Shown: positions 6,914 through 57,169 of the stretch, piece by piece
How positions within the stretch are numbered: the stretch's first letter is position 1
Layout of the letters: each line of letters opens with the position of its first letter
NCBI RefSeq assembly: GCF_014596515.1
Contig: NZ_MSJQ01000062.1
Location: 1-64,000, forward strand
Length of the DNA: 64,000 nucleotides
Reading direction: 5' to 3'
From: Streptomyces sp. CBMA156
Lineage (GTDB): Bacteria; Actinomycetota; Actinomycetes; Streptomycetales; Streptomycetaceae
Notes under the pieces: generated by a model
The model's input: only the letters and a program-made list of their open reading frames with translations
Told to the model about the DNA's origin: nothing
The model's database searches: none
Translations under genes and position numbers: made by a program

Positions 6914-6917
6914 CCGC

Positions 6918-18451: not shown

Positions 18452-18454
18452 GTG

Positions 18455-43311: not shown

Positions 43312-43755
43312 ATGCATGCCGCACACGTCCCCGCACCTATGAAGTTAGGTCCGGTCGTCTACACCGACCGGGAGCTCCTGTGCGTGCTCATCCGCCTGGC
43401 GCAGGGGGAAGGCACTCTCGGGCGTCGCACGTTCGAACGGCGCCGCAAGGGCGCGGGCCCGTCGGCTCCGCTCTACGAGCGCCGCTTCGGCAGCTGGAAC
43501 CGCGCGCTGGAGCTCGCGGGCCTCGACGCGGTCGCACAGCCCGAGCAGCTGCAGAATGCGACAACGAAGTGGACCCAGGAGCAACTCATCGTCGCGATCC
43601 GCTGGTGTCTGCTGGTAACGGGGTCCACGACGCTGGCGGCCTACGAGGCTTGGCGCACTGATCCGGCGAATCCGAAGTCCGATGTTCCGCCGGCCACCAC
43701 CATCCGCTTCCGGATGGGCAGTTGGTCGCGAGCCACCGAACTGGCTTGCAGCTGA
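43312..43755 (+). CDS. Homing-endonuclease-associated-repeat protein
   Basis: A 147-aa protein with two helical DNA-binding repeats of the kind found beside HNH homing endonucleases: TFERRRKGAGPSAPLYERRF then GSWNRALELAGL, and AAYEAWRTDPANP followed by TTIRFRMGSWSRATELA. No HNH nuclease domain is attached, so it is probably a DNA-binding protein. ATG 43312 follows GAAGGG. It opens the plus-strand array. Confidence 0.7.
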   Translation: MHAAHVPAPMKLGPVVYTDRELLCVLIRLAQGEGTLGRRTFERRRKGAGPSAPLYERRFGSWNRALELAGLDAVAQPEQLQNATTKWTQEQLIVAIRWCLLVTGSTTLAAYEAWRTDPANPKSDVPPATTIRFRMGSWSRATELACS

Positions 43756-43835
43756 AGTCCATCGGCATCTGCGATGCCGTTCACGCCGCACTGTGGGCAG
43801 GGCCGAGTCGGCGGATTTTCCCGGGAAGGGGATTC

Positions 43836-44345
43836 ATGACGGATGTAGTCACTGTCTGCATTCTGGAGCCGTGCTGCGAGAAGTCGGAGCCGGGCTATAC
43901 ACCGAGACCGAAGCCCTACTACGTGCGCACCCCGGGCTCGTCCGACTCGTGCAACCACCTCCGTAGCGAGCGGCGGAAAGCCATGATCACGGAGTACGGG
44001 ACGCGTGGGGAGGCCGAAGCCGAGTATCAGGGCAAGGCGTGCGGCTGGGGGTCGACGGATGGGTGGCTGTACGAGGGCGAGATGCCGCCGGAGGGGGAGC
44101 GGTTCCGGATCCTGCCGATCAAGGGCACCCTGACCACGCACTTCTGGCACGGGGAGCCGGTCGAGATCCCGTTCCCGACCATCGACCTGGCCCGCGAGTA
44201 TGCCGAGGAGTACCACGAGTATCCCGACGGCGGATTCCACAAGCAGATCCTCTACAACATCGTCGGTGACCAGGACACGGTCGTGCGCTGGTCGTCCTAC
44301 ACGGTCAAGGTCGGAACCGAGCTGGCCGCGGGCGACTGGGCGTAG
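43836..44345 (+). CDS. Array gene 1: hypothetical protein
   Basis: A 169-aa acidic protein, Tyr- and Glu-rich (STDGWLYEGEMPPEGERFRI; LAREYAEEYHEYPDGGFHKQ), with several Cys near the N-terminus (VCILEPCCEKS). ATG 43836 follows GGGAAGGGG; an internal ATG at 43983 is a possible alternative. Followed by 281 bases without a gene. Not recognised. Confidence 0.65.
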   Translation: MTDVVTVCILEPCCEKSEPGYTPRPKPYYVRTPGSSDSCNHLRSERRKAMITEYGTRGEAEAEYQGKACGWGSTDGWLYEGEMPPEGERFRILPIKGTLTTHFWHGEPVEIPFPTIDLAREYAEEYHEYPDGGFHKQILYNIVGDQDTVVRWSSYTVKVGTELAAGDWA

Positions 44346-44626
44346 CGCGTACTGAGCTGGCGGGTGAGCGTAGATCCGCTGCCTGACCAGATCCTGTGGT
44401 TCTAGCGGAAGCGGCCGTAGAGCAGACGGAGACGGATACGAGTGCATCGGGCCCTGTCCGACGCGCGACCGACCTCTGGGCGAAGCGCTATCCGCTGGCA
44501 TCCGTCCCGACCTTCGGAAGCAACTCGGTGCGACATATCTGAACAGCAGTGCTGCCTCCGTGTCCGGCCTCTGCCACCCCGTGCTGCCTGTCCTCCCCAG
44601 CGGTGTCTCATCCGCCTTTACTCACC

Positions 44627-45082
44627 ATGACAAGGAACATCGTGTTCAAAACTCCCTTGGCTGTGCCCCCGTGCGACGCGGCCCCCGCTGATGTCTCCGA
44701 AGCCCTCACCCGGCTCACCGAGGCCCAGGACCTCCCCTTCCACCGGTGGGACCGTGCGTACAGCGCGCGTATCCAGAACCTGGCCGGATGGCTGCACTGC
44801 GCCGCGATGTGGCGGGGCCAAGATCTCACCGAAGCCGCCGACGTCCCCGAAGGGGGCGGCCAGGTCGTGCTCCACGCTCTGATCGACGCGCATGCAGCCA
44901 TGCTGGCCCGCCACGAAGCCGAGCTCGCGCCGTACAAGGATGCCGGCGGAGCACTGCTCGGCGAGGACTACGACGAACACGACAGGGTCGCCGACCGGCA
45001 CATCGAGGAGGTCGTGGAGATGCTCGGCCTCGTCATGGCGGTGCTGGTCGGCGAGTTCGGACGGCCGACGAGCACCCCGTAA
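44627..45082 (+). CDS. Array gene 2: hypothetical protein
   Basis: A 151-aa helical acidic protein (AARIQNLAGW-like segment preceding LHCAAMWRGQDLTEAADVPE; HIEEVVEMLGLVMAVLVGEF). The start may be ATG 44627 or GTG 44642; AAGGA lies 5 bases before the latter. Soluble, no signal. Similar in style (acidic, one-domain) to the following genes. Not recognised. Confidence 0.65.
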   Translation: MTRNIVFKTPLAVPPCDAAPADVSEALTRLTEAQDLPFHRWDRAYSARIQNLAGWLHCAAMWRGQDLTEAADVPEGGGQVVLHALIDAHAAMLARHEAELAPYKDAGGALLGEDYDEHDRVADRHIEEVVEMLGLVMAVLVGEFGRPTSTP

Positions 45083-45170
45083 CCGCATCTCCCGCTCGGG
45101 CTCGGGCCACAGCGGCAGCGGGCTGCCCGGCCCTGCCATACCCCTTCATCTCAAGGAGACACTCACCCCG

Positions 45171-45365
45171 ATGTCCACTCTCGACCTTGTGTGGCGGGCC
45201 CACAAGACCGCCGACTGCCTGAGCAACAGCCTCGCCTTCTTCTACGAGGACGGCTATCCGGCCGGCGTCACCGGTCTCACCGAATCCCAGCGGCAGACCC
45301 TCGCCGGCCAGCTCGGCGCACTCCAGCAGGATCTCGCCAAAGTGGGCGTTGTGCCAACCTCTTGA
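45171..45365 (+). CDS. Array gene 3: small helical protein (64 aa)
   Basis: MSTLDLVWRAHKTADCLSNS, then LAFFYEDGYPAGVTGLTESQ and a Leu/Gln-rich helix. AAGGAG stands 11 bases before ATG 45171. It is too short for domain assignment. The pattern resembles small helical phage or plasmid proteins. Confidence 0.65.
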   Translation: MSTLDLVWRAHKTADCLSNSLAFFYEDGYPAGVTGLTESQRQTLAGQLGALQQDLAKVGVVPTS

Positions 45366-45506
45366 GACGCTGGTACCCCTCCACCCGGCGCTCCTGCGCC
45401 GAGTCTCTGCCGTGGTCGGACGGCGAGCATAAGTGCCTGATTCTGAACCCCCAGCACTGTCAGAGACAGGCACTGACCCACCACCAACCAGGATCGAGGG
45501 AAACCG

Positions 45507-46019
45507 ATGACGACCTACCAGGCCACCGCGGGGCCGGGGAAGCAGTCCCCTCCCGCGCCGCTCGACCCGGCCGCGCTGCGGCAGCTGTCCCGCCACGCGA
45601 GCGACGTGCTCTCGCCCGCCGGCCTGGTGCAGGACACTCCGCCCCTGGCCGAGGCGGGAGCCCACCTGTCGATCGCGCTCATGCAGTTGTGCCGGACCGA
45701 GGATTCCGTGGGGACACGGATCGCCTCCATGATGCAGTCGGTTGAGATTCTGGCGCTGGAGTACACCGGGCACGGCGCTATCGACGTAGACCAGCTGGGG
45801 ATCATCGGCGGTATCTCGCAGGTGCTGGAACACCAGTCGGCAATGCTCGCGACGGCGCAGGCGCTGGAGGTGCAGGCCCTCAAGTTGCGCCACGCGGCGC
45901 TGGTTGGCCGACTGCTGGAGTCGGCCGACGAGCAGTCGGCCCGTCTGGCGCGGGAACGGGTCAAGTCCGCGGAAGCCGTTGGCGAGACGGTGGAGACCCT
46001 GTGGGAGGGGAATCACTGA
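45507..46019 (+). CDS. Array gene 4: hypothetical helical protein
   Basis: A 170-aa protein, almost all helix (AALRQLSRHASDVLSPAGLV; ALEVQALKLRHAALVGRLLE; ADEQSARLARERVKSAEAVG). GAGGGAAA precedes ATG 45507. Its stop overlaps the start of the next gene (TGATG). Not recognised. Confidence 0.7.
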   Translation: MTTYQATAGPGKQSPPAPLDPAALRQLSRHASDVLSPAGLVQDTPPLAEAGAHLSIALMQLCRTEDSVGTRIASMMQSVEILALEYTGHGAIDVDQLGIIGGISQVLEHQSAMLATAQALEVQALKLRHAALVGRLLESADEQSARLARERVKSAEAVGETVETLWEGNH

Positions 46020-46591
46020 TGATCAACGCAATGGCTGAGAAATTCCAGTACATCCTCGGCCGCATCGAGGTGATCCACCAGCAGAACCCCGAGCTGAACG
46101 ACGATCTGAGGCACGAGATCAGTTCGATCTACGACGCGTGCGCGGTCGGGCTCCAGGCGGCCGGCATCGACATCCTGGCCGAGCCGACGCCCAAGGATGA
46201 GGCGTGGGAGGCCCGGCTGGCTCACATGGCCCGGGTCGGACTCCACGCAGCCGTGGAAGGACAACCGGTGAAGTCCTGGATCCGCCGAGTCTGGCGTCAG
46301 ATTCGGCGCCCGGCACCTCCGGCCGGGCTGGTCGCCGTGCGCGTGACCGTGTCGTACGTGGCCACGGTTGAACGAGTCGGCGAGGTCACCGTTCTGGTGC
46401 CCCCCGACGCCCTGGGCGACGCGGAACGCCTCCGCGAAGCGGTCGACGAGAACTGGGTTTGGACGCGACAGCCGCGGGCCCAGATCGCGATCGACGAGGA
46501 CGACCTGACCGTCACCTTTCTGAGGCTCGCCACCGCCCGTGAGATCAACGCCATTCCGGGGATCGAAGAGTACGAGGAGTACACCAAATGA
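46019..46591 (+). CDS. Array gene 5: hypothetical two-part protein
   Basis: A 190-aa protein. An N-terminal helical part (KFQYILGRIEVIHQQNPELN; HEISSIYDACAVGLQAAGID) is followed after a basic linker by a beta-rich part (VAVRVTVSYVATVERVGEVT; AIDEDDLTVTFLRLATAREI). Coupled to both neighbours by start/stop overlaps. Not recognised. Confidence 0.7.
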   Translation: MINAMAEKFQYILGRIEVIHQQNPELNDDLRHEISSIYDACAVGLQAAGIDILAEPTPKDEAWEARLAHMARVGLHAAVEGQPVKSWIRRVWRQIRRPAPPAGLVAVRVTVSYVATVERVGEVTVLVPPDALGDAERLREAVDENWVWTRQPRAQIAIDEDDLTVTFLRLATAREINAIPGIEEYEEYTK

Positions 46592-46872
46592 CCCAGACGG
46601 TTTCGCTGCTGGGGCGATGGGATTGGGGCGGAGGGCTGGTTGTCGAGGACGCCCACCTTGACGCTACCGACGAGGAGACGGCCGCAAGGGTCGACAGGCG
46701 TGTGTCCAGCAACGCGTGGGCGGGCACCTTCGAGGTGCCGACGGTTATGGCCGCCGCGCGGGCCGCGTACCTGGAGTACGCGCCGGAGTACGTGAGGTTC
46801 TTCGACCCGGTCACAGACAAGTACGTGCGCCTCGACGAGGACGACTTCACGGACGAGGAGCTGGGGCTGTGA
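46588..46872 (+). CDS. Array gene 6: acidic hypothetical protein (94 aa)
   Basis: MTQTVSLLGRWDWGGGLVVE, with an acidic C-terminus (VRLDEDDFTDEELGL). Start overlaps the preceding stop (ATGA) and its stop overlaps the next start (GTGA). Not recognised. Confidence 0.68.
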   Translation: MTQTVSLLGRWDWGGGLVVEDAHLDATDEETAARVDRRVSSNAWAGTFEVPTVMAAARAAYLEYAPEYVRFFDPVTDKYVRLDEDDFTDEELGL

Positions 46873-47096
46873 GCCTGGGACTGACGACGGCGGTGGTGCC
46901 GCTGTGGGAGGCGCCGATGGCCGGAGGGGTGGAGTGCTCGGCCAGCGTGAACCCGGACCGGGCACGCATCTTCGTCTTCGAGGAGCAGCCGGGCCAGATA
47001 GTCGGCCGGCCGAACCTGCTCTCGGTCGGCTGGTTGCAGCCGGCGGTCGACGAGGCGCAGTGGCTGCGGTGGGCGGATTTCCCGGTGGAGGTGTGA
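46869..47096 (+). CDS. Array gene 7: hypothetical protein (75 aa)
   Basis: MSLGLTTAVVPLWEAPMAGG, then ARIFVFEEQPGQIVGRPN and a Trp-rich end (VDEAQWLRWADFPVEV). It uses GTG 46869 in a GTGA overlap, which is the main support for this start. Not recognised. Confidence 0.62.
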   Translation: MSLGLTTAVVPLWEAPMAGGVECSASVNPDRARIFVFEEQPGQIVGRPNLLSVGWLQPAVDEAQWLRWADFPVEV

Positions 47097-47097
47097 C

Positions 47098-47517
47098 GTG
47101 GGGCGAACGCTTCTGGCGTCAGGGGTGGCGGAGTTCACCGTCCACCCGGACGCGGACCGACTGATGGTTTCTCACCCGGGGTGTGACGTCTTGCTCTCGT
47201 TCGGCGGGAATGTGCAGCTCGGCGAGCTGGCGGATGCGGTCGACAAGCACCTGAAGGCGGAGCACCGAAAGCCGCGCATGCGAAAGAGGCAGAGCCGCGT
47301 CGAAGTGGCCGAGCGTATCGCCGATGCTGCCCTCCGCTTCGTGTACGAGGCTCGGGTGCACGGCAGCACGAATCTGGTGACATCTCTGACGTTGGAGGAG
47401 AGCGCGCAGACCCTCGGGTACACGGGCGGGACGCACTACACCGTCTCCACGGTGAAACGGGCCGCGGCCCGGCTGGCGGCCGAGCGCGGTTGGGAAGCCC
47501 TGCTGGCCTCGGACTAG
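47098..47517 (+). CDS. Array gene 8: hypothetical DNA-binding-like protein
   Basis: A 139-aa protein. A beta-rich start (SGVAEFTVHPDADRLMVSHP) is followed by a basic patch (RKPRMRKRQSRVEVAERIAD) and a C-terminal helical part (ESAQTLGYTGGTHYTVSTVK, RAAARLAAERGW) that resembles a winged helix. GTG 47098 is one base after the previous stop. The DNA-binding role is inferred from the basic and HTH-like pattern only. Confidence 0.62.
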   Translation: MGRTLLASGVAEFTVHPDADRLMVSHPGCDVLLSFGGNVQLGELADAVDKHLKAEHRKPRMRKRQSRVEVAERIADAALRFVYEARVHGSTNLVTSLTLEESAQTLGYTGGTHYTVSTVKRAAARLAAERGWEALLASD

Positions 47518-47632
47518 GCAGGCCGGAAGGAGAGGTGGGCGGCCACGCTGATCGACCGGACCTCCGTGGCCGGCCGGTTGGCGCTGCTGTGCACAGTGCA
47601 TAGCCGGACTGGGGGTGGAAATGGGGGGATCG

Positions 47633-47926
47633 ATGTCCGCCGAGCGTCGGGGCAATCGGTTGCTGGTGGAGAACTACGGGCCGAGTCGGACGGAGTACCT
47701 GGTCGATGAGCACGTGATTGTGGAGGCGCAGCCGAAGGGCGTCACTGTGGTCCGGTACGTCGTGGACCAGGGTGGACAATGGTGGGCGGCGGGATGGTGT
47801 CGCACCGGGGCCAGCTGGAAGCAGGCCGTCGCCTGGCCCCATGACCTTGCCGCTCGTTTGGTAAGCCGGGGTCATTGTTTGAGGTCAAGGAACCCGGACG
47901 GCACCGCGAAGGAGGCCGACCAGTGA
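47633..47926 (+). CDS. Array gene 9: hypothetical small beta protein
   Basis: A 97-aa protein (RRGNRLLVENYGPSRTEYLV; VTVVRYVVDQGGQWWAAGWC), probably a beta barrel-like fold. ATG 47633 is favoured over 47615 because GGGGGGAT lies directly before it. GTGA overlap with the next gene. Not recognised. Confidence 0.62.
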   Translation: MSAERRGNRLLVENYGPSRTEYLVDEHVIVEAQPKGVTVVRYVVDQGGQWWAAGWCRTGASWKQAVAWPHDLAARLVSRGHCLRSRNPDGTAKEADQ

Positions 47927-48624
47927 GCGACCCGTCGATCTCCGGCCTGCCCCCGCGCAGCATCGACTACCGGCGCCCGCTGCCGTACGAGTGGACGAGC
48001 GACAAGCCGTGGCCGAAGCGGGGCGAGAATGGGCTCTCGATCAAGGTCGAAGGCGGGGAGTTGGTCACTCGAAACGTCCGCGAGGGTACGGGCCCGGCCG
48101 GCACGTGGTCGGACATGTCGGGGTGGGGCGTGTCATCCCGGCTGATCCTTGGCGGCCGGCCGAGGGATGCGCGCTCGGTGGCCACAGTGACCGACGACGA
48201 CGGTGTGAGGTGGTCGGTCGGCACCGCGCGGATCGACGCGGGTTGGGGCATCCCGGAGCGTGCGGTCGCCTGGCGCTGGTCCGGGGCGGACGAGTACGCC
48301 GACCCGATCTTCCATTACCGGGTCCAGTACAACGACGCAGCACCGGACGCGGAAGCGAACTGGGTGCCGAACAAGTACAACGGCGATTCGGTCCACATGA
48401 GTTCATTCGGCACTGGTGATATCCGGCGGCTCGCCATTCGGCGCGCGGCCGAGCATCTTTCGCACGTGCCGGGGATGACTGGCCATTACCTCGCGGACAT
48501 TCCGAATGCGGCACGCGACTATCGGGCACTCGTGACCTGCTCCACCGGCGAGCAGTGGGACGTACGGATCGACGGCACCGCGACCAAGATTCGCGAGGGC
48601 CGGGACCCGAAGGCGACCGTCTGA
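47923..48624 (+). CDS. Array gene 10: hypothetical protein
   Basis: A 233-aa protein rich in Trp, Asp and Gly (PLPYEWTSDKPWPKRGENGL; DDDGVRWSVGTARIDAGWGI; ANWVPNKYNGDSVHMSSFGT). GTG 47923 overlaps the previous stop. A terminator hairpin follows 16 bases after its stop, so this gene closes one transcription unit. Not recognised. Confidence 0.68.
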   Translation: MSDPSISGLPPRSIDYRRPLPYEWTSDKPWPKRGENGLSIKVEGGELVTRNVREGTGPAGTWSDMSGWGVSSRLILGGRPRDARSVATVTDDDGVRWSVGTARIDAGWGIPERAVAWRWSGADEYADPIFHYRVQYNDAAPDAEANWVPNKYNGDSVHMSSFGTGDIRRLAIRRAAEHLSHVPGMTGHYLADIPNAARDYRALVTCSTGEQWDVRIDGTATKIREGRDPKATV

Positions 48625-48640
48625 GCTAGCTACTTCTTGA

Positions 48641-48668
48641 GGGTCGCGTCAGGCGCGACTCCCTTTTT
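48641..48668 (+). terminator. Rho-independent-type terminator
   Basis: Arms GGGTCGCG and CGCGACTCCC around a 5-base loop, one bulged T, then TTTTT. It lies 16 bases after array gene 10. Confidence 0.75.
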
Positions 48669-48769
48669 CATGCCCTGACCGGTGACGAGAGCGCTCCGGG
48701 ACTGCACTACAACCGGCGCGCTGTCACCATCTGCCAGCCAATCCAAGTCAGCAATCCAGGAGGGGAATT

Positions 48770-49297
48770 ATGCGACGCGTGAAGGTCGGGCAGCGGCTGA
48801 AAGTCAAGCTGCCGCACTCCGAGGTCTGCATGCACATGCGGGTCGCGGACCAAGTGATGGAGGTCGAGATCCTGGCTGAGGCCGTCCAGCTGTACAAGGA
48901 CGGTCAGAAGTTCTCCGGGCCGATCCTCCTGGGTGAGGCCGGAGTCTACGTCAAGTACGTCACGGGCCGCATCGGGAGGGTGCGCGAGCTGTGGGCCGAC
49001 GTCGAGGAGGTCATCGACTACCGGTCCATCGGCGTCGGCGAATCCTCCGACTGGTACTACCTACGCTGCGGCTGCCAGCTCTTCGTCAGCCAGCCGGGCT
49101 GGAACGTGCAGTCGACCGACATCTCGGTCTTCTGCGAGGAGATGCAGCGACTCCACCAGGAGTACGCGGACGTGGCGCTGAAGAACATCCGCGCGGCGTT
49201 CCCGCAGGCGCGGGCGATCGACGAGCACGCCGGGGTGCCGAAGGAGTTCCTCGACGCCGAGGAGGCCGACCGGAAGGCCAAGGGGTGGGTGGCATGA
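48770..49297 (+). CDS. Array gene 11: hypothetical protein
   Basis: A 175-aa protein. The N-terminal part is beta-like (VKVGQRLKVKLPHSEVCMHM; ILLGEAGVYVKYVTGRIGRV). A middle segment with Cys-x-Cys (YYLRCGCQLFVSQPGWNV) precedes a C-terminal helix (LHQEYADVALKNIRAAFPQA). GGAGGGG lies 6-7 bases before ATG 48770. First gene of the second unit, ATGA-coupled to the next. Not recognised. Confidence 0.7.
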   Translation: MRRVKVGQRLKVKLPHSEVCMHMRVADQVMEVEILAEAVQLYKDGQKFSGPILLGEAGVYVKYVTGRIGRVRELWADVEEVIDYRSIGVGESSDWYYLRCGCQLFVSQPGWNVQSTDISVFCEEMQRLHQEYADVALKNIRAAFPQARAIDEHAGVPKEFLDAEEADRKAKGWVA

Positions 49298-49629
49298 GCG
49301 AGCAGCCGAACGTCGAGCACAACAAGCGCGCGTTCAAGCTGATCGAGGGCCGATTCTCGGACCAGGTCAAGTCGTTCAACTCCGGCAGCGTGGGCATCGA
49401 GGACTCCGACGCCCACTACTTCGCGGTCACCGACCGGCTCAAGCTCGCCCGGATCGCACTGGGCCGGGCGCCCGAACTCTTCGTCGGGGTGCGCGTGCTC
49501 ACGCTGTCCCTTCATCTCGGGGACATCTACCGGAGCATCCGGAAGCACCTCACCCCGGACGAACTTGCCCGTTGGGAAAGGCTCGACCAGGTGATCGAAG
49601 ACCTCATGGACGAAATCGGAGAGAGCTGA
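49294..49629 (+). CDS. Array gene 12: hypothetical protein
   Basis: A 111-aa helical protein (HNKRAFKLIEGRFSDQVKSF; RLKLARIALGRAPELFVGVR; LARWERLDQVIEDLMDEIGE). Coupled on both sides by overlapping start and stop codons. Not recognised. Confidence 0.68.
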   Translation: MSEQPNVEHNKRAFKLIEGRFSDQVKSFNSGSVGIEDSDAHYFAVTDRLKLARIALGRAPELFVGVRVLTLSLHLGDIYRSIRKHLTPDELARWERLDQVIEDLMDEIGES

Positions 49630-49886
49630 TGAGCGAGCGGCAGGAAATCTACCGAATCCCGAGCTCAGGCGACGGTACCCCGGTGGACGAGTCGATGCTG
49701 GTCATTGGCCGCAAGAACGGCAGCTCCAGCAGCCGGAAACAGAAGCGCTTCGACAGCGTCGAGGAGGCCGAGGCGGCGATGCGGGAGTGGGTGGTGGAGG
49801 GATTCAACGTGTTCTGGACCGCGCTGGGCGACGGTCCCCTGTCCGAGCCGTTCGACCTGGTCGACGGCGAGCGCTCCTACATCTGA
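49629..49886 (+). CDS. Array gene 13: hypothetical protein (85 aa)
   Basis: MSERQEIYRIPSSGDGTPVD, then KQKRFDSVEEAEAAMREWVV and EPFDLVDGERSYI. The layout (short strands, one helix, strands) resembles small proteins with a DUF-like alpha/beta fold. TGATG coupling to gene 12. Not recognised. Confidence 0.66.
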   Translation: MSERQEIYRIPSSGDGTPVDESMLVIGRKNGSSSSRKQKRFDSVEEAEAAMREWVVEGFNVFWTALGDGPLSEPFDLVDGERSYI

Positions 49887-49900
49887 TCGGTGGAATCTTC

Positions 49901-49993
49901 ATGGCCTACAAGTCCGTGTCAGTGCAGGTGATTTACAGCGTTCGCCTGCTGAACCCACAACGAGACGTCCACTGGGACGGAATGGAATCCTGA
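49901..49993 (+). CDS. Array gene 14: 30-residue peptide
   Basis: MAYKSVSVQVIYSVRLLNPQ RDVHWDGMES, with GGTGGA 9 bases before ATG 49901 and a stop that overlaps the next start (TGATG). Its fit between coupled neighbours is the main argument for translation. Confidence 0.42.
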   Translation: MAYKSVSVQVIYSVRLLNPQRDVHWDGMES

Positions 49994-50502
49994 TGAGTGA
50001 GTGGTTCGAACAGGGAACTGGCGTGGTCTCGATCCGCGCCGAAGAAGTCAAGATCGGCATGCGCCTGGCGAAGTACGACTTCGAGGAGGAGCGCACCATC
50101 CTCACGCCCGTGTGGGCGGTTGGGTACCACCCGAGTCCGTCTAGCGGGCCGTGGGCGCGGACGTCGGACGGTGAGCTCCACTCCTGGCGCAGCTTCTCTG
50201 CGGGGCACGCCCTCTTCCAGTGGGTACATCTGGAGATCCGCGACGAGTTCATGCCGCCGCACCCCGGTGAGTGGATCACCAATGTTCCCGAGTCGGCCGA
50301 CGTGCAGGAGTGGTCGCGCGACGCGCACCGGATTCGCACCCTGGAGCTTGGCAGCCGCCGGTACACGCTCTGCCGCGAGCCGGCCGGCGTGTTCTGGGTG
50401 CTGCGCGAGGAGAACGGCGAGTGCTGGAGTTCGCCGGTGCGGGTCACTCCTGAACCCGCCAACGCCCAGTTCGACGCGATCGAAGCCGGGCAGGGGTGGT
50501 AA
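49993..50502 (+). CDS. Array gene 15: hypothetical protein
   Basis: A 169-aa protein (VVSIRAEEVKIGMRLAKYDF; WARTSDGELHSWRSFSAGHA; LGSRRYTLCREPAGVFWVLR), rich in Trp and short strands. Coupled to the peptide gene before it. The opening segment (IRAEEVKIGMRL) recalls the N-terminal strand of array genes 11 and 16. Not recognised. Confidence 0.66.
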   Translation: MSEWFEQGTGVVSIRAEEVKIGMRLAKYDFEEERTILTPVWAVGYHPSPSSGPWARTSDGELHSWRSFSAGHALFQWVHLEIRDEFMPPHPGEWITNVPESADVQEWSRDAHRIRTLELGSRRYTLCREPAGVFWVLREENGECWSSPVRVTPEPANAQFDAIEAGQGW

Positions 50503-50506
50503 CGCC

Positions 50507-50998
50507 ATGCCCGACGAATCGGTGCATGAATCTGTGCGGTGGTACCCCCGCGTCGAGGTCCGGCACGTCGAGGCCTGGGCCGTCTATGAGTTCGGGGACA
50601 GCATCACAACACGACTCGCGGCCGGAGAGCTGGTCGCGTACTGGGTCACCGTCGGCGGCGAGACGTACGCCTGGCCGCAGGCCGACAAGCCCGGACTCGA
50701 CGCGGTCTACCGCTCCCCCTGCGACATCCCGGCGGGCGAACTGCGCGACCTGGCCACCGACATGTGGACAGATGCCGTCGCCGAAATCGGGGATCGCTTC
50801 CGGGCTGGCGACCGCACCGTCACCATCCGCGCGATCGAGTGCGACGACCGCGGCCAGGAGGGCGCCTGGAAGACGGGCTACGTGCTGGCGTCCGCGGCCG
50901 GCGAGGAGCCCGTTCGATACCAGCTCGACGACCTGGTGCCCGAAGCGACGAACCTCGCGACCCAGGGCGGTAACTTCACCGGCAAGGAGATCAACTGA
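50507..50998 (+). CDS. Array gene 16: hypothetical protein
   Basis: A 163-aa protein (EVRHVEAWAVYEFGDSITTR; GETYAWPQADKPGLDAVYRS; FRAGDRTVTIRAIECDDRGQ). ATG 50507 is 4 bp after the previous stop; GGGGTGG lies within reach. Ends in an ATGA overlap. Not recognised. Confidence 0.66.
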   Translation: MPDESVHESVRWYPRVEVRHVEAWAVYEFGDSITTRLAAGELVAYWVTVGGETYAWPQADKPGLDAVYRSPCDIPAGELRDLATDMWTDAVAEIGDRFRAGDRTVTIRAIECDDRGQEGAWKTGYVLASAAGEEPVRYQLDDLVPEATNLATQGGNFTGKEIN

Positions 50999-51414
50999 TG
51001 CAGAACAGCGTGATAACCCCGGGCGGCCTGCGGACAGGCTCGGGGCCGAAGTACAACACCAAGCGGCGGCTGGTCACCTGCAAGGCCATGTACTGCGACG
51101 AGGAGCCGACCCACGTCCAGGAGTTCACCACCTTCGAGGGCAGGGTGGAGCGCTTCGGCGCGTACTGCGAGCAGGACGTCACGAGATACATTCGGCCGCA
51201 CGCCGAGGTCGAAGCCTCGCACGACCATGCGGTCACATACGGCGTACAGCCGGAACACATGCTGTCCGACAAATGGTGGTCCGCGCGCCCGCTGAACGAC
51301 GCCGAGCAGGCCGAAATCGAGGCCATCAAGCGCGGCGAGCTGGTCGAGACGTACATGACTCCCGGCGAATTCGTCTGGGCACCTCCGGGCCAGCCGTACG
51401 CCTGCTTCTCCTGA
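50998..51414 (+). CDS. Array gene 17: hypothetical protein with Cys pair
   Basis: A 138-aa protein. A central part with Cys and His (LVTCKAMYCDEEPTHVQEFT; ERFGAYCEQDVTRYIRPHAE) suggests a small metal site. Last gene of the second unit, followed by an inverted repeat. Not recognised. Confidence 0.66.
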   Translation: MQNSVITPGGLRTGSGPKYNTKRRLVTCKAMYCDEEPTHVQEFTTFEGRVERFGAYCEQDVTRYIRPHAEVEASHDHAVTYGVQPEHMLSDKWWSARPLNDAEQAEIEAIKRGELVETYMTPGEFVWAPPGQPYACFS

Positions 51415-51425
51415 CCGAGGCCGAA

Positions 51426-51449
51426 AAGGGCGCCCCGCGGGGTGCCCTT
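51426..51449 (+). terminator. GC-rich hairpin after array gene 17
   Basis: AAGGGCGCCCCG pairs with CGGGGTGCCCTT, 12 bases per arm with one mismatch or wobble and a minimal loop. No T-run follows, so termination strength is uncertain. Confidence 0.6.
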
Positions 51450-51503
51450 CGCGCATTCAGGATGCGTCTGACGATGGCCGTCAGTGAGAGAAGTGAGGGA
51501 CGG

Positions 51504-52097
51504 ATGTACTTGAACAGGCTGCCGGACGCGATTCTGCGAGTGCTCGACGCGGATCCGAATCCTCAGCGATGGGACGACGTGCGGATCCTGCTGGGGTACG
51601 ACGGACCGCACCAGGCGGCCCAGTTCTACGACGTCGTCTGGAAGATGTACGGCCTCCAGGAAGGCGAGACGGCGTACGTCACGTCGGTATCGACCGAGGA
51701 CGACCCTGAGATCTGCACCAACCCGTTGCTCGCCCTCACGAAGGCGGGCATTGTCCACACCGAGGATCAGCGTCGGGCCCGGCGCGAGCTGGTCGCCGCC
51801 AACGAGGCCGAGTGGGACACCGCAGCCGGATGGAACCCGGTGGACGTGGAGGGCTTCACACCTGACTTCACCAGGGTCACCTTCCACTTCCAGGGCGTGC
51901 AGACGTACGCGGTGTGGGAACGGGGCGAGCGGTTGATGCGCTACTTCGCCCCAGAGAGCGACCTGCTCGGCCTCTGGGGGTGGTCGCACCGCATCGACCC
52001 CGACGAGACGGACGCGGTCGAGGCCGCCGCGCTGTGGGGTCCGCTCGGGAAAATCATCTACGACCGCAGCCCCCGCGCTACCGCTCGGGAGGTCTGA
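51504..52097 (+). CDS. Array gene 18: hypothetical protein
   Basis: A 197-aa acidic protein (MYLNRLPDAILRVLDADPNP; KMYGLQEGETAYVTSVSTED; FHFQGVQTYAVWERGERLMR). GAGGGA lies directly before ATG 51504; upstream ATG 51474 is less likely. Starts the third unit. Not recognised. Confidence 0.66.
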   Translation: MYLNRLPDAILRVLDADPNPQRWDDVRILLGYDGPHQAAQFYDVVWKMYGLQEGETAYVTSVSTEDDPEICTNPLLALTKAGIVHTEDQRRARRELVAANEAEWDTAAGWNPVDVEGFTPDFTRVTFHFQGVQTYAVWERGERLMRYFAPESDLLGLWGWSHRIDPDETDAVEAAALWGPLGKIIYDRSPRATAREV

Positions 52098-52100
52098 TTG

Positions 52101-52899
52101 GTGGGAACCACGTTCGTCCGCTACCACGGCAGAGACGTCGCCGTAACCGAGCCTGTTGCAGATCTGATTCCGCTGCTGCGGAAGGCCGCGATCGAGTTCA
52201 CCATCTCCGGCGATCGCACCGTGCTCTACGAGCAGCCCGGACTACTTCGTCAAGCTCTTCGTAGAGCACTACCGGATGATGCAGCGGGTCTGGAAACACC
52301 TGCGCCACGACGCGGAATGGGGCCGGCGTCTGACCGACGCCGGGATCAGGTTCAGCTGGACCTTCCAGGGCGCTCGGGTGTGGCGCGAGCCCGGTGCCCA
52401 CGGCATGCGCTACCGCTACCACGTCACCTTCAACCGCCCCGGCGTGCGCCATCCCGCGAACACGCAGCTCGAATTCGGGATGTCGTACCACTGGTTCGCA
52501 CCCGAGGTCTTCCAGAAGATCATCGAGGAGGCGATCGGCCACAGCGAGCAGACCGCCGCGTTGTTGGCGCTGGTGCTGGAGCAGATGTTCCTGTGGACCC
52601 GCAAGCGCCGGGACATCGAACGCAGGGTCGCCTACCGGCGTGAACGGAAGCAGCCTGAACGAGAGATCGACGCCGCCGCGGCCAGGGCGTGGCTGGAGTA
52701 CCACCTCGTGGAGTGGGACGTCGGCTGGAGTTCGACGGCCGGTGCCGATGGTGGTGAGCGGTCCATGCCGAAGGATCAGCTGTGGTGGATGAACGCGTTC
52801 ACCCGTGAACGCGCGGCCGTCCGCGAGTTTGAGATGGTCGTCGGCGCCGAGCTGCTGGAGACCTGGCTCAAGCTCGACATGGAGAAGTGGGGGAGTTGA
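52101..52899 (+). pseudogene. Array gene 19: hypothetical protein with a one-base frame break
   Basis: The N-terminal part from GTG 52101 (TTFVRYHGRDVAVTEPVADL; KAAIEFTISGDRTVLYEQP) loses sense after 52237. A second frame reads on at once (DYFVKLFVEHYRMMQRVWKH), with the start ATG 52276 inside it, to the stop at 52899 (FTRERAAVREFEMVVGAELL). Removing one G near 52238 would give one protein of about 265 aa. It could be an assembly indel, a true mutation or a shift site. Confidence 0.6.
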
Positions 52900-52914
52900 C
52901 AGACTGCGTGGGTG

Positions 52915-52957
52915 GCCCCGGGTGGTGAGGGTGGCCGGTTCGAATCCGGCCGGGGGC
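52915..52957 (+). ncRNA. tRNA T-arm-like element 1
   Basis: The hairpin GCCGG-TTCGAAT-CCGGC has the canonical 5-bp T-stem and 7-nt T-loop. The 7 bases before the element (GCCCCGG) can pair with CGGGGGC after it in 6 of 7 positions, like an acceptor stem. Only 12 bases lie where D and anticodon arms would be, so it cannot be a normal tRNA. It stands between array genes 19 and 20 and is followed by GCGCAGG. The same 3' block recurs at 54026-54058. Confidence 0.55.
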
Positions 52958-52997
52958 GCGCAGGGATTCCGCAACAACGAGCGAAGGAGCACAGCTG

Positions 52998-53459
52998 GTG
53001 GGAATCGAGACCGTGCACAACAACGAGCTCAAGCACGTCGTCTGCCTGGTGACGTGGCGCACGGTGGGAAGGGCAAAGGACCCGCAAGGCGAGCCGCAGG
53101 TCGAGCGGATGCAGCTCGGCGTCGAGGTGGGCGAGGAGGAGCCGGACGGCCCGTACACGAGCCGCTACTTCGCGCCGTGGACCGAGGCGAAGCAGCGGAT
53201 TGAGCAGCTGCACAACACGCACCAGAACTTCTTCGAGATCACGTCGATCGAGCCGGAGTGCAGCTGCCTTGGGCCGTGCCGGTACCAGGACCGGACCAGG
53301 TTCCTGATTGAGCCGGCGGGCTACCAGCACTTCCAGTCGGCGATCTTCGACCGCGACGACGCCAACAATGACATGGGGTGGCTGCCGATCGAGGCCGGCA
53401 CCGTCGAGGGCATGAAGCTGCTGCTGGAGCGGCACCGGCGCAGCAACCACCACCAGTAG
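52998..53459 (+). CDS. Array gene 20: hypothetical protein
   Basis: A 153-aa protein (HNNELKHVVCLVTWRTVGRA; RYFAPWTEAKQRIEQLHNTH; ITSIEPECSCLGPCRYQDRT). The Cys-x-Cys-x3-Cys cluster may bind metal. AAGGAG lies 9 bases before GTG 52998. A terminator follows 16 bases after the stop. Not recognised. Confidence 0.68.
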   Translation: MGIETVHNNELKHVVCLVTWRTVGRAKDPQGEPQVERMQLGVEVGEEEPDGPYTSRYFAPWTEAKQRIEQLHNTHQNFFEITSIEPECSCLGPCRYQDRTRFLIEPAGYQHFQSAIFDRDDANNDMGWLPIEAGTVEGMKLLLERHRRSNHHQ

Positions 53460-53475
53460 TCGACGGAAGACACGA

Positions 53476-53504
53476 GGCGGTCCGCAGTACGCGGGCCGCC
53501 TTTT
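53476..53504 (+). terminator. Rho-independent-type terminator
   Basis: GGCGGTCCGC pairs with GCGGGCCGCC (one G-U) around AGTAC, followed by TTTT. Ends the unit of array gene 20. Confidence 0.78.
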
Positions 53505-53537
53505 GCATGCCCGAGAGGACCAAGGAGAAGGCTACGG

Positions 53538-53990
53538 ATGGACAACTGCGTTGAGTACCCGGCTCAGTTCTGGAGGGAGGCCCTGGAGGTCGCCGAGGAG
53601 TTCGAATTCGACGAGGTCGACTCTCGCGAGCAGGGCGGCCTGTACGGGCTCCTGGCGGAGTGGCTGTCGGAGCTCTACACCCACGACACGATCGAGCGGG
53701 ACCGCGACCGCCTTGCCGCAGTGATCGACGTCTTGGAGCAGGAAGGCGAGACCGCCTTCCCGGCAACGCGCTTCGAGCAGGTCATGGAGTCGTACGGTGG
53801 CGAGAACGTCTCGGACTACAAAGTGATCGGCAGGGAATGGATCGAGGCCGACTGCCCCGAGGACATTTCCCCGACGAAGGTTTCTGACTGGAAGCGGTTC
53901 TGCACGGACAACGTCTTCCGCGAGGGCGAGGTCTGGGTCGAGAACAAGGACAGCGGGACGTTCCATTTCTTCGACAAGCATAAGTGGTGA
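53538..53990 (+). CDS. Array gene 21: acidic hypothetical protein
   Basis: A 150-aa very acidic protein (FWREALEVAEEFEFDEVDSR; ERDRDRLAAVIDVLEQEGET; GREWIEADCPEDISPTKVSD). AAGGAGAAGG precedes ATG 53538. Acidity and Trp/Phe content recall DNA-mimic or anti-restriction proteins, but that is only a guess. Not recognised. Confidence 0.66.
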   Translation: MDNCVEYPAQFWREALEVAEEFEFDEVDSREQGGLYGLLAEWLSELYTHDTIERDRDRLAAVIDVLEQEGETAFPATRFEQVMESYGGENVSDYKVIGREWIEADCPEDISPTKVSDWKRFCTDNVFREGEVWVENKDSGTFHFFDKHKW

Positions 53991-54025
53991 ACCTGCTGTA
54001 ACAGGGGCCGCGGATGTGGCGTGAG

Positions 54026-54058
54026 GCCGCGGAATCGAATCCCGCCCGGGGCGCGCAG
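54026..54058 (+). ncRNA. tRNA T-arm-like element 2 (degenerate)
   Basis: GCGGA-ATCGAAT-CCCGC forms a T-arm-like hairpin with one mismatch and is followed by CCGGGGCGCGCAGG, the same block as after element 1. No matching 5' acceptor strand is found. It stands between array genes 21 and 22, in the same position relative to the next start as element 1. Confidence 0.42.
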
Positions 54059-54085
54059 GAATTCGATTCCGATGGAGGGAAAGAG

Positions 54086-54284
54086 ATGAACCTGGTCATG
54101 CAGGCACTCGTCGAGAACATCGTCGGCGAGCCGAAGCCGTACGGGTGGATCATCACCCGCGACTTGCTCGACGATGGCGAGGCCTCCGCCGAGGGCACTG
54201 CCGTTGCAGGACTTCGGTGCCGGGTACGGCTGTACGGAGATCCATTACAAGAACAGCAACGGCAAATGGGCGAGCTACTACTAA
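54086..54284 (+). pseudogene. Array gene 22: small protein with a one-base frame break
   Basis: From ATG 54086 (GGAGGGAAAG before it): MNLVMQALVENIVGEPKPYG, then WIITRDLLDDGEASAEG. After about 54195 the second frame makes better sense (ALPLQDFGAGYGCTEIHYKN, SNGKWASYY) and stops at TAA 54282, just before the IS element. Removing one base near 54195 would restore a ~65-aa protein. Read in the first frame alone, the ORF runs into the IS. Confidence 0.55.
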
Positions 54285-55214
54285 GGCCTGTCTGATAATT
54301 AATCTTGTGGCAGGTCGAGGCGAGCTGACGGACGCGGCGTGGGAGCGGATAGAGCCCTTGTTGCCGCGGGTGGACGGGCGTGGTCGTCCGTGGCGTGATC
54401 ACCGGCAGGTGGTCAACGGTGTGTTGTGGCGGCTTCGGACAGGGGCTCCGTGGCGCGATCTCCCGGAGCGGTATGGGCCGTGGCAGACGGTCTACGAGCG
54501 GTTCGCCCGCTGGGAGGCGGACGGGACCTGGGCGCGGCTGCTCGAACACGTTCAGGTCCGCGACGACGCGGTGGGCCGGGTGGAGTGGACCGTCGCGGTC
54601 GACTCCACGGTCAACCGGGCCCACCAGCACGCCGCCGGCGCCCGCAAAAAGGGGCCGCAGACGGGGACGAACTGGAAGATCCGGGCCGCTCGCAGACGCG
54701 CCAGGCCCTCGGCCGGTCCCGAGGCGGGCTGACCACCAAGGTCCACCTCGCCGTCGACGGCCGGGGCCTGCCGCTGTCGATCGTGCTCACTCCGGGAAAC
54801 GTCAACGATGCGACCGCGTTCGGCCAGGCCCTCGACGGGATCCGCGTCCCGCGTTCGGGCCCGGGTCGCCCGCGCACGACACCGTTGCGGGTGCTGGGCG
54901 ACAAGGCCTACTCCAGCAGGGCGATCCGCCACCTGCTGCGGCGCCGGGGCATCGCCGCCACGATCCCCGAACGCCGCGACCAGGTCGGCAACCGCCGACG
55001 CCGAGGGCGTTCCGGCGGCCGACCGCCCGTCTTCGACAAGGAGATCTACCGCGACCGCAACGTGGTCGAACGATGCTTCGCCCGCCTCAAGCAGTTCCGT
55101 GCGATCGCGACCAGGTTCGACAAGCTCGCCGACCGCTACCGAGCAGGAGTCGTCCTGGCCTCCCTGATCCTCTGGCTCCGCGAACCGGCCAGGTGATCAT
55201 TTATCAGACAGGCC
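54285..55214 (+). mobile_element. IS5-type insertion sequence, complete
   Basis: Terminal inverted repeats GGCCTGTCTGATAA (54285-54298) and TTATCAGACAGGCC (55201-55214) are exact reverse complements. The flanks (CTAA left, TTAG right) give at most a short TA duplication. The element is 930 bp with one transposase in two frames. It inserted directly after the stop codon of array gene 22 and before that gene's terminator. Confidence 0.88.
54307..55196 (+). CDS. IS5-type transposase, two frames joined by a probable -1 shift
   Basis: First frame from GTG 54307: ELTDAAWERIEPLLPRVDGR, VLWRLRTGAPWRDLPERYGP, VAVDSTVNRAHQHAAGARKK (first catalytic Asp). Second frame: QALGRSRGGLTTKVHLAVDG, VLGDKAYSSRAIRHLLRRRG, RNVVERCFARLKQFRAIATR (later Asp and Glu). 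The first frame stops at 54732. The overlap contains CGCAAAAAGGGG near 54648, a plausible slippery site for programmed -1 frameshifting as in related IS elements. Confidence 0.85.
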
Positions 55215-55217
55215 TTA

Positions 55218-55269
55218 GCCCGCCCGGACTGCGCCACAACCCGGCTCGCCCAACTCGGGGCGGGCCTTT
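55218..55269 (+). terminator. Terminator-like inverted repeat after the IS element
   Basis: GCCCGCCC near 55218 pairs with GGGCGGGC near 55259, with an inner GC-rich loop, followed by CTTTCG. It probably served array gene 22 before the IS landed between them. Confidence 0.55.
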
Positions 55270-55289
55270 CGTGTTTCGGAAAGGAAATC

Positions 55290-55510
55290 ATGGACGAGAC
55301 CAGCGTCCTGCCGGCCGCAGACTCGATGCGGCCCGACGACACCAGCCCCCCGTTCCCCGACGGCACACCCTGGCACCCGCACTACGCGGACCAAAGGAGT
55401 TCGAGAGGGACACGCTGAAGGCCCACATGAACGCTGCGGACCTGGATGCGCGCGACAAGAACGCGCGCTTCGAGCAGATCGTCGAGAACTTCAAGACCGA
55501 GGAGAACTAG
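55290..55510 (+). pseudogene. Array gene 23: small protein with a one-base frame break
   Basis: ATG 55290 after AAGGAAA: MDETSVLPAADSMRPDDTSP, then PDGTPWHPHYA. Beyond 55390 a second frame continues (KEFERDTLKAHMNAADLDAR, DKNARFEQIVENFKTEEN) to the stop at 55510. One missing base near 55393 would restore a ~73-aa protein. The next gene starts 2 bp after the stop. Confidence 0.55.
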
Positions 55511-55512
55511 CT

Positions 55513-56586
55513 ATGAACAGGTGCGACGACGACCCGAAGTGCCGGGCCAACGAGGAGATCACGCTCCTTGCCCACGTGCGCCGAGACGAGGCCGGTCAGC
55601 TCCATCTCCACCAGCTGAACCCCCGCGATGTGCAGAGCGTCGAGCACGACGTGGACGAGGATCACGCTCACGGAGTGACCAGCACTCTCGAACAGCACGA
55701 GCGGATGCTGCCCGAGCTGGAAGCGCTGGCCAAGCGCGTCATGGAGAAGCTGAACAGCGGAACCGCGACGCGCCGCCTGGACATCGTCATAGACCGCGAA
55801 GTGGACTCCAGCACGTACCTGCACGTCTTCCGCGGCGGCTACGAGGTGTCGGAGCACGGCTACTCGGTCCACATGATCGACCCCGGAGCCGGAGACACCG
55901 ACCACGCGTGGTACGAGAATCTGATCTCTAACAGCGCCGACGCGCCCGAGAAGGTGCGGGACAGGATCCGCGAGATCGCCGGCGAGTACCACGACGAGGA
56001 CGGCGACTGCGACGAGTGCGACCCGGGCTCGGCCGAAACGGCGGAGGAGATCGCGCGCCTGAGCGCCGTGCGCCGGGCCGACGGACGGTTCTTCTACAAC
56101 GGGCAGGTCGCCACCGTGATCGACCGCATTACCGGAGAGCCCGTGGACGTCGGCGAGACCCTCACACGCGTCGGCCGCGACATCCGCAAACCCGTCGTTT
56201 TCAAGGGCGTCTACTTCAACGAGGCCACCGGTGAGCACGCCAACATGGCGATCTGCCACGCCACGAGCCCCATATCCGGCGCCGTCACCGAGCAACGGTG
56301 GAGCCTCGACATGGTCGGACTGGCCTTCCGCTACCCCGACGGCCGGATCTACGACGTCGCCGCCACCTCCTACTCGATCATGATCGACGAGGAGAAGTTC
56401 GAGCCCGGACTGCTGCGCACGGACCAGGAGACCGGGCGCGAGGTGAGGATCCTCCACCCGTCCTCCCTCGGGGAGGTCAACGTCCGCTACCTCGACAACG
56501 ACGAACAGTTCTGTACCCGCAACGCGGCCCGGTTCGGGATCACCCTCCAGCCGTGGAGCGTCGACATCGAGCTGGGCCGCGCCTGA
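55513..56586 (+). CDS. Array gene 24: large hypothetical protein
   Basis: A 357-aa acidic protein, the largest of the array. Visible segments: DDDPKCRANEEITLLAHVRR; RLDIVIDREVDSSTYLHVFR; GDCDECDPGSAETAEEIARL (Cys-x-x-Cys); WSLDMVGLAFRYPDGRIYDV; FCTRNAARFGITLQPWSVDI. No recognised domain, signal or membrane segment. Starts 2 bp after gene 23 and is followed by a strong hairpin. Confidence 0.68.
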   Translation: MNRCDDDPKCRANEEITLLAHVRRDEAGQLHLHQLNPRDVQSVEHDVDEDHAHGVTSTLEQHERMLPELEALAKRVMEKLNSGTATRRLDIVIDREVDSSTYLHVFRGGYEVSEHGYSVHMIDPGAGDTDHAWYENLISNSADAPEKVRDRIREIAGEYHDEDGDCDECDPGSAETAEEIARLSAVRRADGRFFYNGQVATVIDRITGEPVDVGETLTRVGRDIRKPVVFKGVYFNEATGEHANMAICHATSPISGAVTEQRWSLDMVGLAFRYPDGRIYDVAATSYSIMIDEEKFEPGLLRTDQETGREVRILHPSSLGEVNVRYLDNDEQFCTRNAARFGITLQPWSVDIELGRA

Positions 56587-56639
56587 CACAGCTCGCAGCA
56601 ACAAGTCAACCAGGGCGGCTCTGACCTGACGAGTTCGAC

Positions 56640-56674
56640 GGCGCCCGGAGCCCCTGAGGGAGTGTCCGGGCGCC
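56640..56674 (+). terminator. Perfect 10-bp-stem hairpin after array gene 24
   Basis: GGCGCCCGGA pairs exactly with TCCGGGCGCC across a 15-base loop. There is no T-run, so it may terminate weakly or act in the leader of the next gene. Confidence 0.6.
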
Positions 56675-56727
56675 GGCGTATCCGGAAATCAGAGAAGCGC
56701 AAACCAACGAGGTTCAAGGAGAAACCT

Positions 56728-56919
56728 GTGCCCAAGAAGTTCCTAGTGACGATGATGGTGCAACGTTCGGTCTGGTACGTGGTCGAGGCGGACAACGACA
56801 AGGAGGCGATGCGCGAGGCCGTGGAAGCCGCGAAGGCGAATAAGCGCGCCTACCTGACCAAGCCGTGGCGATACTGCGTCACCCTCGTCGGTGACATGGA
56901 CCCGAAGAAGGGCTTCTGA
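56728..56919 (+). CDS. Array gene 25: small hypothetical protein (63 aa)
   Basis: KKFLVTMMVQRSVWYVVEAD, then a helix NDKEAMREAVEAAKANKRAY and a strand (RYCVTLVGDMDPKKGF): a compact alpha/beta fold. GTG 56728 is chosen because AAGGAG stands 6 bases upstream. Not recognised. Confidence 0.68.
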   Translation: MPKKFLVTMMVQRSVWYVVEADNDKEAMREAVEAAKANKRAYLTKPWRYCVTLVGDMDPKKGF

Positions 56920-56920
56920 C

Positions 56921-57169
56921 ATGCGTCAGAAGATCAAATTCCATCCGATGATCGGCGGGGTCGAGCAACACGTCACTCACCCCGCCAAGCACCGCGGCTA
57001 CCGGCATCTCGTCGCCCGATCCGTCTCCATGGCGGTCTGCAGGTTGTCACCGGCCGGGCCGACAGCCGCAGCTCCACCCTACGGATCGCGCACGAGGTCG
57101 CGACGAAGGCCGGAAGTGAGATCCCCACGGGCGGCCGGACGGCTGGGGCGCCCGCGGATTCCGGCCTGA
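56921..57169 (+). CDS. Array gene 26: hypothetical protein, C-terminus doubtful
   Basis: ATG 56921 directly after the previous stop: MRQKIKFHPMIGGVEQHVTH, then PAKHRGYRHLVA. After about residue 40 the sequence loses sense while another frame (VVTGRADSRSSTLRIAHEVA) looks better, so the gene may be frame-broken or shorter. The rest of the stretch to 57343 holds no clear gene. Confidence 0.42.
   Translation: MRQKIKFHPMIGGVEQHVTHPAKHRGYRHLVARSVSMAVCRLSPAGPTAAAPPYGSRTRSRRRPEVRSPRAAGRLGRPRIPA

Follow-up and report, generated by a model that had tools for sequence, protein, structure and literature searches.

A one-way array of small genes beside conserved transfer-type genes in Streptomyces sp. 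CBMA156: a candidate establishment island of a conjugative element

Within the 64-kb window studied here (positions 1 to 64,000 of contig NZ_MSJQ01000062.1 from Streptomyces sp. CBMA156, the contig being 77.8 kb long and the assembly 9.17 Mb in 458 contigs), a long row of small genes is read in one direction next to a transfer-type gene cluster on the opposite strand. A self-trained, codon-usage-based gene finder places 25 plus-strand coding sequences and no minus-strand gene between positions 43339 and 56919, gene starts in the window being predictions. In comparison with other Streptomyces elements, this row, referred to here as the array, has a conserved pair of mobilization (mob) genes and a conserved folded block on its left, begins with a conserved head gene, runs one way with divergent content, and shows fast turnover elsewhere. 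Such an arrangement could be that of an establishment region of a conjugative element.

The array and its left border

The marker of the element is a MobC-like protein of 130 amino acids (aa) (42049-42441, minus strand), which is 77-100% identical in 15 Streptomyces elements and whose gene overlaps by 4 nt that of a 386-aa protein (40892-42052, minus strand) with no match in Pfam or NCBIfam, also found in all 15. The name MobC-like is suggested by size and position; the protein has no significant Pfam family, and its homologues in Rhodococcus and Gordonia are 31% identical (E ~1e-11). The gene was found in 5 of 395 family genomes and at 11 loci in a species-level collection. Next to this pair is a shortened lipoprotein gene (42499-43002, minus strand; family F2), kept in 14 of 15 elements, the form in relatives being 277 aa long; it is also short in L020, and encodes 208 aa in L025 and 233 aa in NBC01454. 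Some of the 15 elements are near-identical, with groups such as G268/L021-L023 and G226/G342/L028, and counts out of 15 do not represent 15 independent lineages.

The space from the lipoprotein gene to the head gene holds a structured non-coding block of 100 bp (43152-43253), located between the mob genes and the array in 14 of the 15 elements. It contains a perfect 8-bp inverted repeat, GGATCAAC-GGA-GTTGATCC (43195-43213), which occurs as such, or as a variant with a one-base loop, at the equal position in 14 of the 15, one outer pair being lost in four near-identical elements. In a second hairpin (43224-43244) two pairs are changed on both sides and 95% of cells are paired; overall the paired cells amount to 97%, compared to 18-41% upon sliding, and the covariation score was equalled by 14 of 500 shuffles. 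Overall, these data provide modest support for a block that folds as a structured strand. Because of its place, the block is our best candidate for the origin of transfer (oriT), the alternative being an operator or an RNA leader of the array. The head gene that follows (43312-43755, plus strand; 138-147 aa depending on the start chosen) encodes an HNH_repeat protein (PF18780, Pfam E 4.5e-10) that also matches phrog_22655 (E 2.4e-6), is retained in 11 of 15 elements with 80-95% identity, and is possibly a DNA-binding regulator.

Up to a distance of 14.5 kb from the MobC-like gene, 27 genes were called on the plus strand and none on the minus strand, two pieces of an IS5 transposase included. 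As in a leading region, all array genes of the window are therefore co-oriented, and the arrays of the relatives are for the most part mainly plus-stranded. An initial annotation of this DNA had described about 27 plus-strand genes at 43312-57169, tightly coupled by overlaps, divided into units by hairpin terminators, and encoding acidic, soluble products, mostly of 60-230 aa. The strand was right, two of those genes are the transposase pieces, and number and extent are corrected to those given above. The majority of the proteins do fall between 60 and 230 aa (median ~140 aa), with one exception of 357 aa, and they are hydrophilic, with an isoelectric point below 6 in 18 of the 25. Overlaps of the types reported do exist (ATGA or GTGA at 46588, 46869, 47923 and 49294; TGATG at 46019, 49629 and 50998), but these overlaps of 1 or 4 nt account for 7 of 24 junctions, and most of the remaining ones are spacers of 28-296 nt. 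Because of these gaps, the array is better seen as a row of short operons. Terminators dividing the units were not confirmed, as 5 terminator-like sites were found in the array compared to 5.8 +/- 2.4 in shuffled sequences, and a hairpin followed by a T run is convincing in a few spacers only, for example at 48641-48661. The repeat search found no long upstream sequence common to the array operons. The coding signal is strong in nearly all array genes and, as a whole, the original observation of the array is partly confirmed.

Array genes, their relatives and the surrounding region

Homology between arrays was assessed by BLAST and short iterative profiles, and because only these were used deeper collinearity may be hidden. 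With the head gene aside, the array genes are mosaic among the 15 elements, close relatives sharing short collinear stretches, and the first array genes share 84-95% protein identity with those of relatives. In the closest one, L020 (S. albipurpureus), the first genes are 91-95% identical and beyond them remote homologues only are seen, for a total of nine matched window genes with one swap in order; L026 has three to four window homologues with order retained. In NBC_01454, the head gene is the sole array gene in common with the window by BLAST, and the site is occupied by a long array of hypothetical genes that is read one way and includes ssb, the gene for a single-stranded DNA-binding protein (SSB). 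In NBC_01454 (NZ_CP109461.1, 546899-574224; L003), sections of the transfer core that lie near each other in the window are kept apart by a lanthipeptide (FxLD) cluster together with further genes. At the array site of G226, G342 and G293, genes are larger or lie on both strands; in most relatives minus-strand genes are few, the conserved lipoprotein gene aside. More distantly, Rhodococcus pGS01 and Gordonia pGKT2 carry the transfer core and a divergent array that begins with ssb and holds a C5 DNA methylase, pGS01 also encoding a DUF262/GmrSD_N protein there. Conserved transfer genes beside variable genes in several operons, as in pLS20-type plasmids, are thus what we find at this locus.

All the array genes described below are on the plus strand. 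Past the head gene, those at 43836-44345, 44642-45082 and 45171-45365 are collinear in L020 (91-92% identity) and partially so in L027 and L028, and the last two have a homologous adjacent pair in NBC_01216. An operon then extends from 45507 to 47517, with genes beginning at 45507, 46019, 46588 and 46869, followed by one from 47098 or 47125 to 47517, and with overlaps of all three types (TGATG, ATGA, GTGA); homologues of 46588 are found in L020 and L027, and the remaining genes are orphans. The pair 47633-47926 and 47923-48624, joined by GTGA, precedes the terminator-like hairpin mentioned above, and the product of 47923 has a homologue in L026. Two more operons follow, 48770-49886 (48770-49297, 49294-49629 and 49629-49886, joined by ATGA and TGATG) and 49993-51414 (49993-50502, 50507-50998 and 50998-51414), in which the 48770 product has homologous array genes in L020, L025, L026 and L027, and the 50507 product in L020, L025 and L026. 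Four genes at 51504-52097, 52276-52899, 52998-53459 and 53538-53990 come next; homologues of the 51504 product exist in L020 and L030, and by clustering also in L026. An IS5-family insertion sequence (54281-55218, plus strand; inverted repeats 54281-54315 and 55184-55218, 83%), with ~90% identity to the IS5 transposase genes of many Streptomyces plasmids, interrupts the array, flanked by broken-looking or weakly called open reading frames (ORFs) at 54086-54295 and 55271-55510. The 357-aa protein (55513-56586) has a domain common to small-gene arrays of other Streptomyces plasmids, with homologues in L030, pFRL6 and NBC_01216 and a weak match to phrog_23377 (E 0.0011). The final gene (56662-56919) encodes a basic protein of 85 aa, for which relatives were not found among the compared arrays. 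Directly after the array there is a plasmid-type GGDEF gene (57344-58030, plus strand), whose DNA is 79-84% identical on many Streptomyces plasmids.

When 26 proteins (those of the 25 array ORFs and of the GGDEF gene) were scanned with Pfam, NCBIfam, PHROGs and PADLOC, the head gene was the only one in the array with a match above cut-off, the GGDEF gene, outside the array, being the other gene recognised. PHROG matches of 20 array proteins scanned singly had a best E of 0.0011, the others being weaker, and sequence searches of the Protein Data Bank returned no match. Tblastn against 72,556 plasmids yielded scattered single homologues, all from Streptomyces or Embleya. Of two predicted structures one was usable: the AlphaFold model for 50507-50998 (predicted local distance difference test, pLDDT, 79) shows a C-terminal SH3/Tudor-like barrel with a top Z of 7.8, and that for 48770-49297 is poor and uninformative (pLDDT 57). 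This barrel of 50507-50998 is a common one, its Z score is too low for relatives to be named by fold, and Foldseek/VIA returned nothing with E <0.001.

Two spacers of the array contain hairpins that resemble the T-arm of a tRNA. One (GCCGG-TTCGAAT-CCGGC, 52934-52950, plus strand) lies 48 nt upstream of the gene at 52998, within an element (52915-52957) where 6 of 7 positions of 52915-52921 and 52951-52957 can form an acceptor-like pairing. A 30-nt part of it is repeated with 90% identity at 54035-54064, within a degenerate second copy (54029-54064, plus strand) upstream of ORF 54086. Besides the window, such hairpins occur in the arrays of L004, L020, L025, L026, L027, L030 and L012-L013; the 7-nt acceptor-like partner is complete (7/7) in L026, L027 and one L020 element, and reaches 6/7 in L025 and L030 as in the window, looser matches being frequent by chance. 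Across nine arrays (125 kb, of which 30 kb intergenic), 12 were in gene orientation, of which 11 intergenic and one genic, and none was in reverse. Because the scan was designed after the first copies were seen, this count is exploratory; the strand bias, which was outside that design, is the strongest point in favor of these elements. Their folds are not unusually stable compared to shuffles, they precede few array genes only, neither ARAGORN nor the tRNA model of Rfam called a complete cloverleaf, and Rfam at permissive thresholds found neither a tRNA nor any other credible family in the array. A 25-base T-arm pattern was left unused as evidence of spread, as it mostly matches the 3' end of one ordinary chromosomal tRNA in many genomes. 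It is conceivable, albeit doubtful, that the hairpins of these arrays belong to a new class of tRNA-like RNA elements, with a T-arm and canonical T-loop, sometimes a 7-bp acceptor-like helix, no D arm and often no anticodon arm, which might act as RNase P/RNase Z punctuation releasing short mRNAs, or as a decoy against tRNA-attacking defences at plasmid entry.

On the minus strand to the left of the mob pair, the transfer-type cluster includes a TopA/TopB-type topoisomerase (37969-40116; Pfam Topoisom_bac and Toprim) and proteins of 299 aa (33410-34309), 766 aa (31063-33363) and ~1100 aa (27725-31018), none with a Pfam family. The 766-aa protein has homologues on Staphylococcus and Enterococcus plasmids (25-26% identity) and on pGS01/pGKT2 (51-52%), and is 87-90% identical in four of four family genomes that have the MobC-like gene. 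Based on gene order, size, membrane character and homology to Firmicutes plasmids, the three proteins would be VirB3-, VirB4- and VirB6-like. Further to the left, positions 18723-23334 (minus strand) encode an RNaseH_pPIWI_RE protein (PF13032, E 1.7e-52) and a 639-aa neighbour, probably a pPIWI-RE defence module, in DNA ~90-93% identical on several Streptomyces plasmids; adjoining these genes, an Rfam group II intron domain match (18454-18553, minus strand) is barely over the cut-off at 41.9 bits. At 2771-7340 (minus strand), an nSTAND1 NTPase with WD40 repeats (1380 aa) lies beside a Trypco1 protein, a typical conflict-system pair.

Possible nature of the array

With a probability of about 0.5, we interpret the block as a fast-evolving establishment island, of the leading-region type, of an actinobacterial conjugative element, and neither as random debris nor as a fixed functional block. 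If that is the case, the structured block would be, or would contain, the oriT, and the array side would be first to enter the recipient, where its small, mostly acidic proteins, synthesized early, would shield the incoming DNA and help it to become established, be it by coating single strands, by blocking restriction and other defences, or by adjusting host functions. The head gene product would act as a DNA-binding regulator, and recipients with differing defences might, through an arms race, drive the fast turnover. Much of what the initial annotation had proposed in this respect holds: a transfer-type cluster does adjoin the array; the products are unlike known families, with only the head gene named, so that most do not match unrelated families; and the block is unlikely to be debris, being coding, with a layout recurrent in the 15 Streptomyces elements and a content that is partly collinear in relatives instead of absent or shuffled in all. 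The suggestion of one functional block is not supported, given the mosaic content, the single gene in common with NBC_01454 by BLAST, and the presence of the same style of array on pFRL6 and NBC_01216, and co-occurrence with MobC-like genes, seen in the 15 elements and in pGS01/pGKT2, was not detected in these two.

Several results weigh against an establishment island. No known anti-defence, SSB or methylase family was seen among the window array proteins with Pfam, NCBIfam and PADLOC; the anti-defence factors that had been envisaged have no PADLOC match, and no anti-restriction family is among the Pfam and NCBIfam matches listed. No relaxase was found in the window, nor by PF03432 in three related plasmid records, and the PF08751 family is absent from the whole genome. 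One PF03432 relaxase-family ORF is present on another contig (C364, 44686-44958; L131), and may be the relaxase of this element or of another one. For most of the putative transfer proteins neither Pfam nor NCBIfam gives a family, their VirB-type roles deriving solely from order, size and Firmicutes homology. Neither sigma-70-like nor single-stranded-DNA-type promoters nor a repeated promoter-like hairpin were found in the array, even though consensus scans are poorly suited to GC-rich actinobacteria. The arrays of pFRL6 and NBC_01216 have no detectable MobC-like genes, and such arrays are therefore not exclusive to this transfer system. Finally, the known form of Streptomyces conjugation is transfer of double-stranded DNA by TraB (PMC12857230), a mode in which a single-strand leading region would have no place. 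Because none of the genes of the window array is recognised as one for SSB, a methylase or an anti-defence factor, and no relaxase was found in the window, we report the array as establishment-like and not as a proven member of this class, with anti-defence activity, transfer polarity and relaxase being putative.

The main rival explanation is that of generic accessory cargo, in which co-oriented rows of orphan genes would serve niche functions or plasmid maintenance and the vicinity of the transfer genes would merely be a region tolerant of insertions. We regard it as possible, if rather unlikely. It would fit the other contexts in which pFRL6 and NBC_01216 carry arrays of this style, the dispersal of single homologues of window genes over such plasmids, the IS5 insertion, and the larger genes or mixed strands in G226, G342 and G293, yet it sits uneasily with the conservation, across 15 elements, of location, orientation and head gene with respect to the mob pair, with the ssb and methylase genes of homologous arrays, and with the scarcity of minus-strand genes in most arrays.

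Alternatively, a phage, phage-plasmid or satellite might have recombined with the element, its early region now being the array, given that phage early regions likewise consist of small overlapping orphan genes in one direction, and that the 357-aa protein has a weak PHROG match. This is improbable, however, as there was no nucleotide match among 50,697 phage records, the singly scanned proteins had PHROG matches of E 0.0011 or weaker only, phage structural genes were not seen nearby, and the homologues sit on plasmids. Slightly less probable still would be a cassette-like array, integron-like in principle, in which genes join at recurring sites, the T-arm-like hairpins serving as recombination sites. 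The 3' ends of tRNA genes are a common target of tyrosine integrases, a tyrosine-recombinase gene is present at 14983-16053, and the hairpins are gene-oriented and almost exclusively intergenic; nonetheless, they are found at 2 of ~24 window junctions, a site would not fit where genes overlap by 1-4 nt, as many neighbours do, and an integron integrase was not seen. Least probable of all, decay into functionless debris would account for the IS5 insertion, the shortened lipoprotein gene and two ORFs (54086 and 55271) that are weak or broken, but not for the strong coding signal of nearly all genes, the high identity of the first genes in relatives, or the remote homologues retained in order.

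Should the establishment reading be correct, these arrays would represent a reservoir of unexplored establishment or anti-defence proteins in antibiotic-producing actinobacteria, beside a transfer system unlike the TraB type of Streptomyces. The mob pair, the hairpin block and the head gene together provide a marker for locating more arrays, and the T-arm-like elements pose a testable question on RNA processing or tRNA mimicry on plasmids.

Comparison with known systems

In conjugative plasmids, anti-defence, SSB and methyltransferase genes are located near oriT on one strand (PMC11541004). The array resembles these leading regions in being a row of one orientation by mobilization genes, in its many uncharacterized small genes, and in the ssb and methylases of homologous arrays; it differs in that the window array itself has no recognised gene of those three kinds and no Frpo-like promoter was seen, in its actinobacterial host, and in an oriT that is a candidate only. 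A similar combination of a conserved transfer core with highly variable, clustered establishment genes in several small operons characterizes the pLS20 family of Bacillus (PMC8708921), although the pLS20 operons have the long shared upstream EGeRS, whereas the window has only sparse T-arm-like elements and a single block before the head gene. An anti-defence role was proposed for the tRNA array units of giant mycobacterial plasmids (PMC12803027), which also are tRNA-related sequences on large actinobacterial plasmids; the window, in contrast, has single T-arm/acceptor-like hairpins between protein genes, without normal D and anticodon arms and not called as tRNAs. With double-stranded DNA conjugation of the TraB type (PMC12857230) the element shares the bacterial family, but its topoisomerase and large membrane or transfer-type proteins resemble those of Firmicutes conjugative plasmids, TraB and Spd not having been specifically searched for. 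In pGKT2 and pGS01, no array gene is common to the window by BLAST, and ssb, methylase and ATP-grasp genes are found there; the two plasmids have the TopA-type topoisomerase (50%), the large transfer protein (52%), a membrane protein (31%), the 299-aa protein (38%) and the MobC-like protein (31%), together with a divergent array of small genes. According to Jung et al. 2011, as cited in PMC5640721, pGKT2 could be moved in the laboratory between genera, to three other species.

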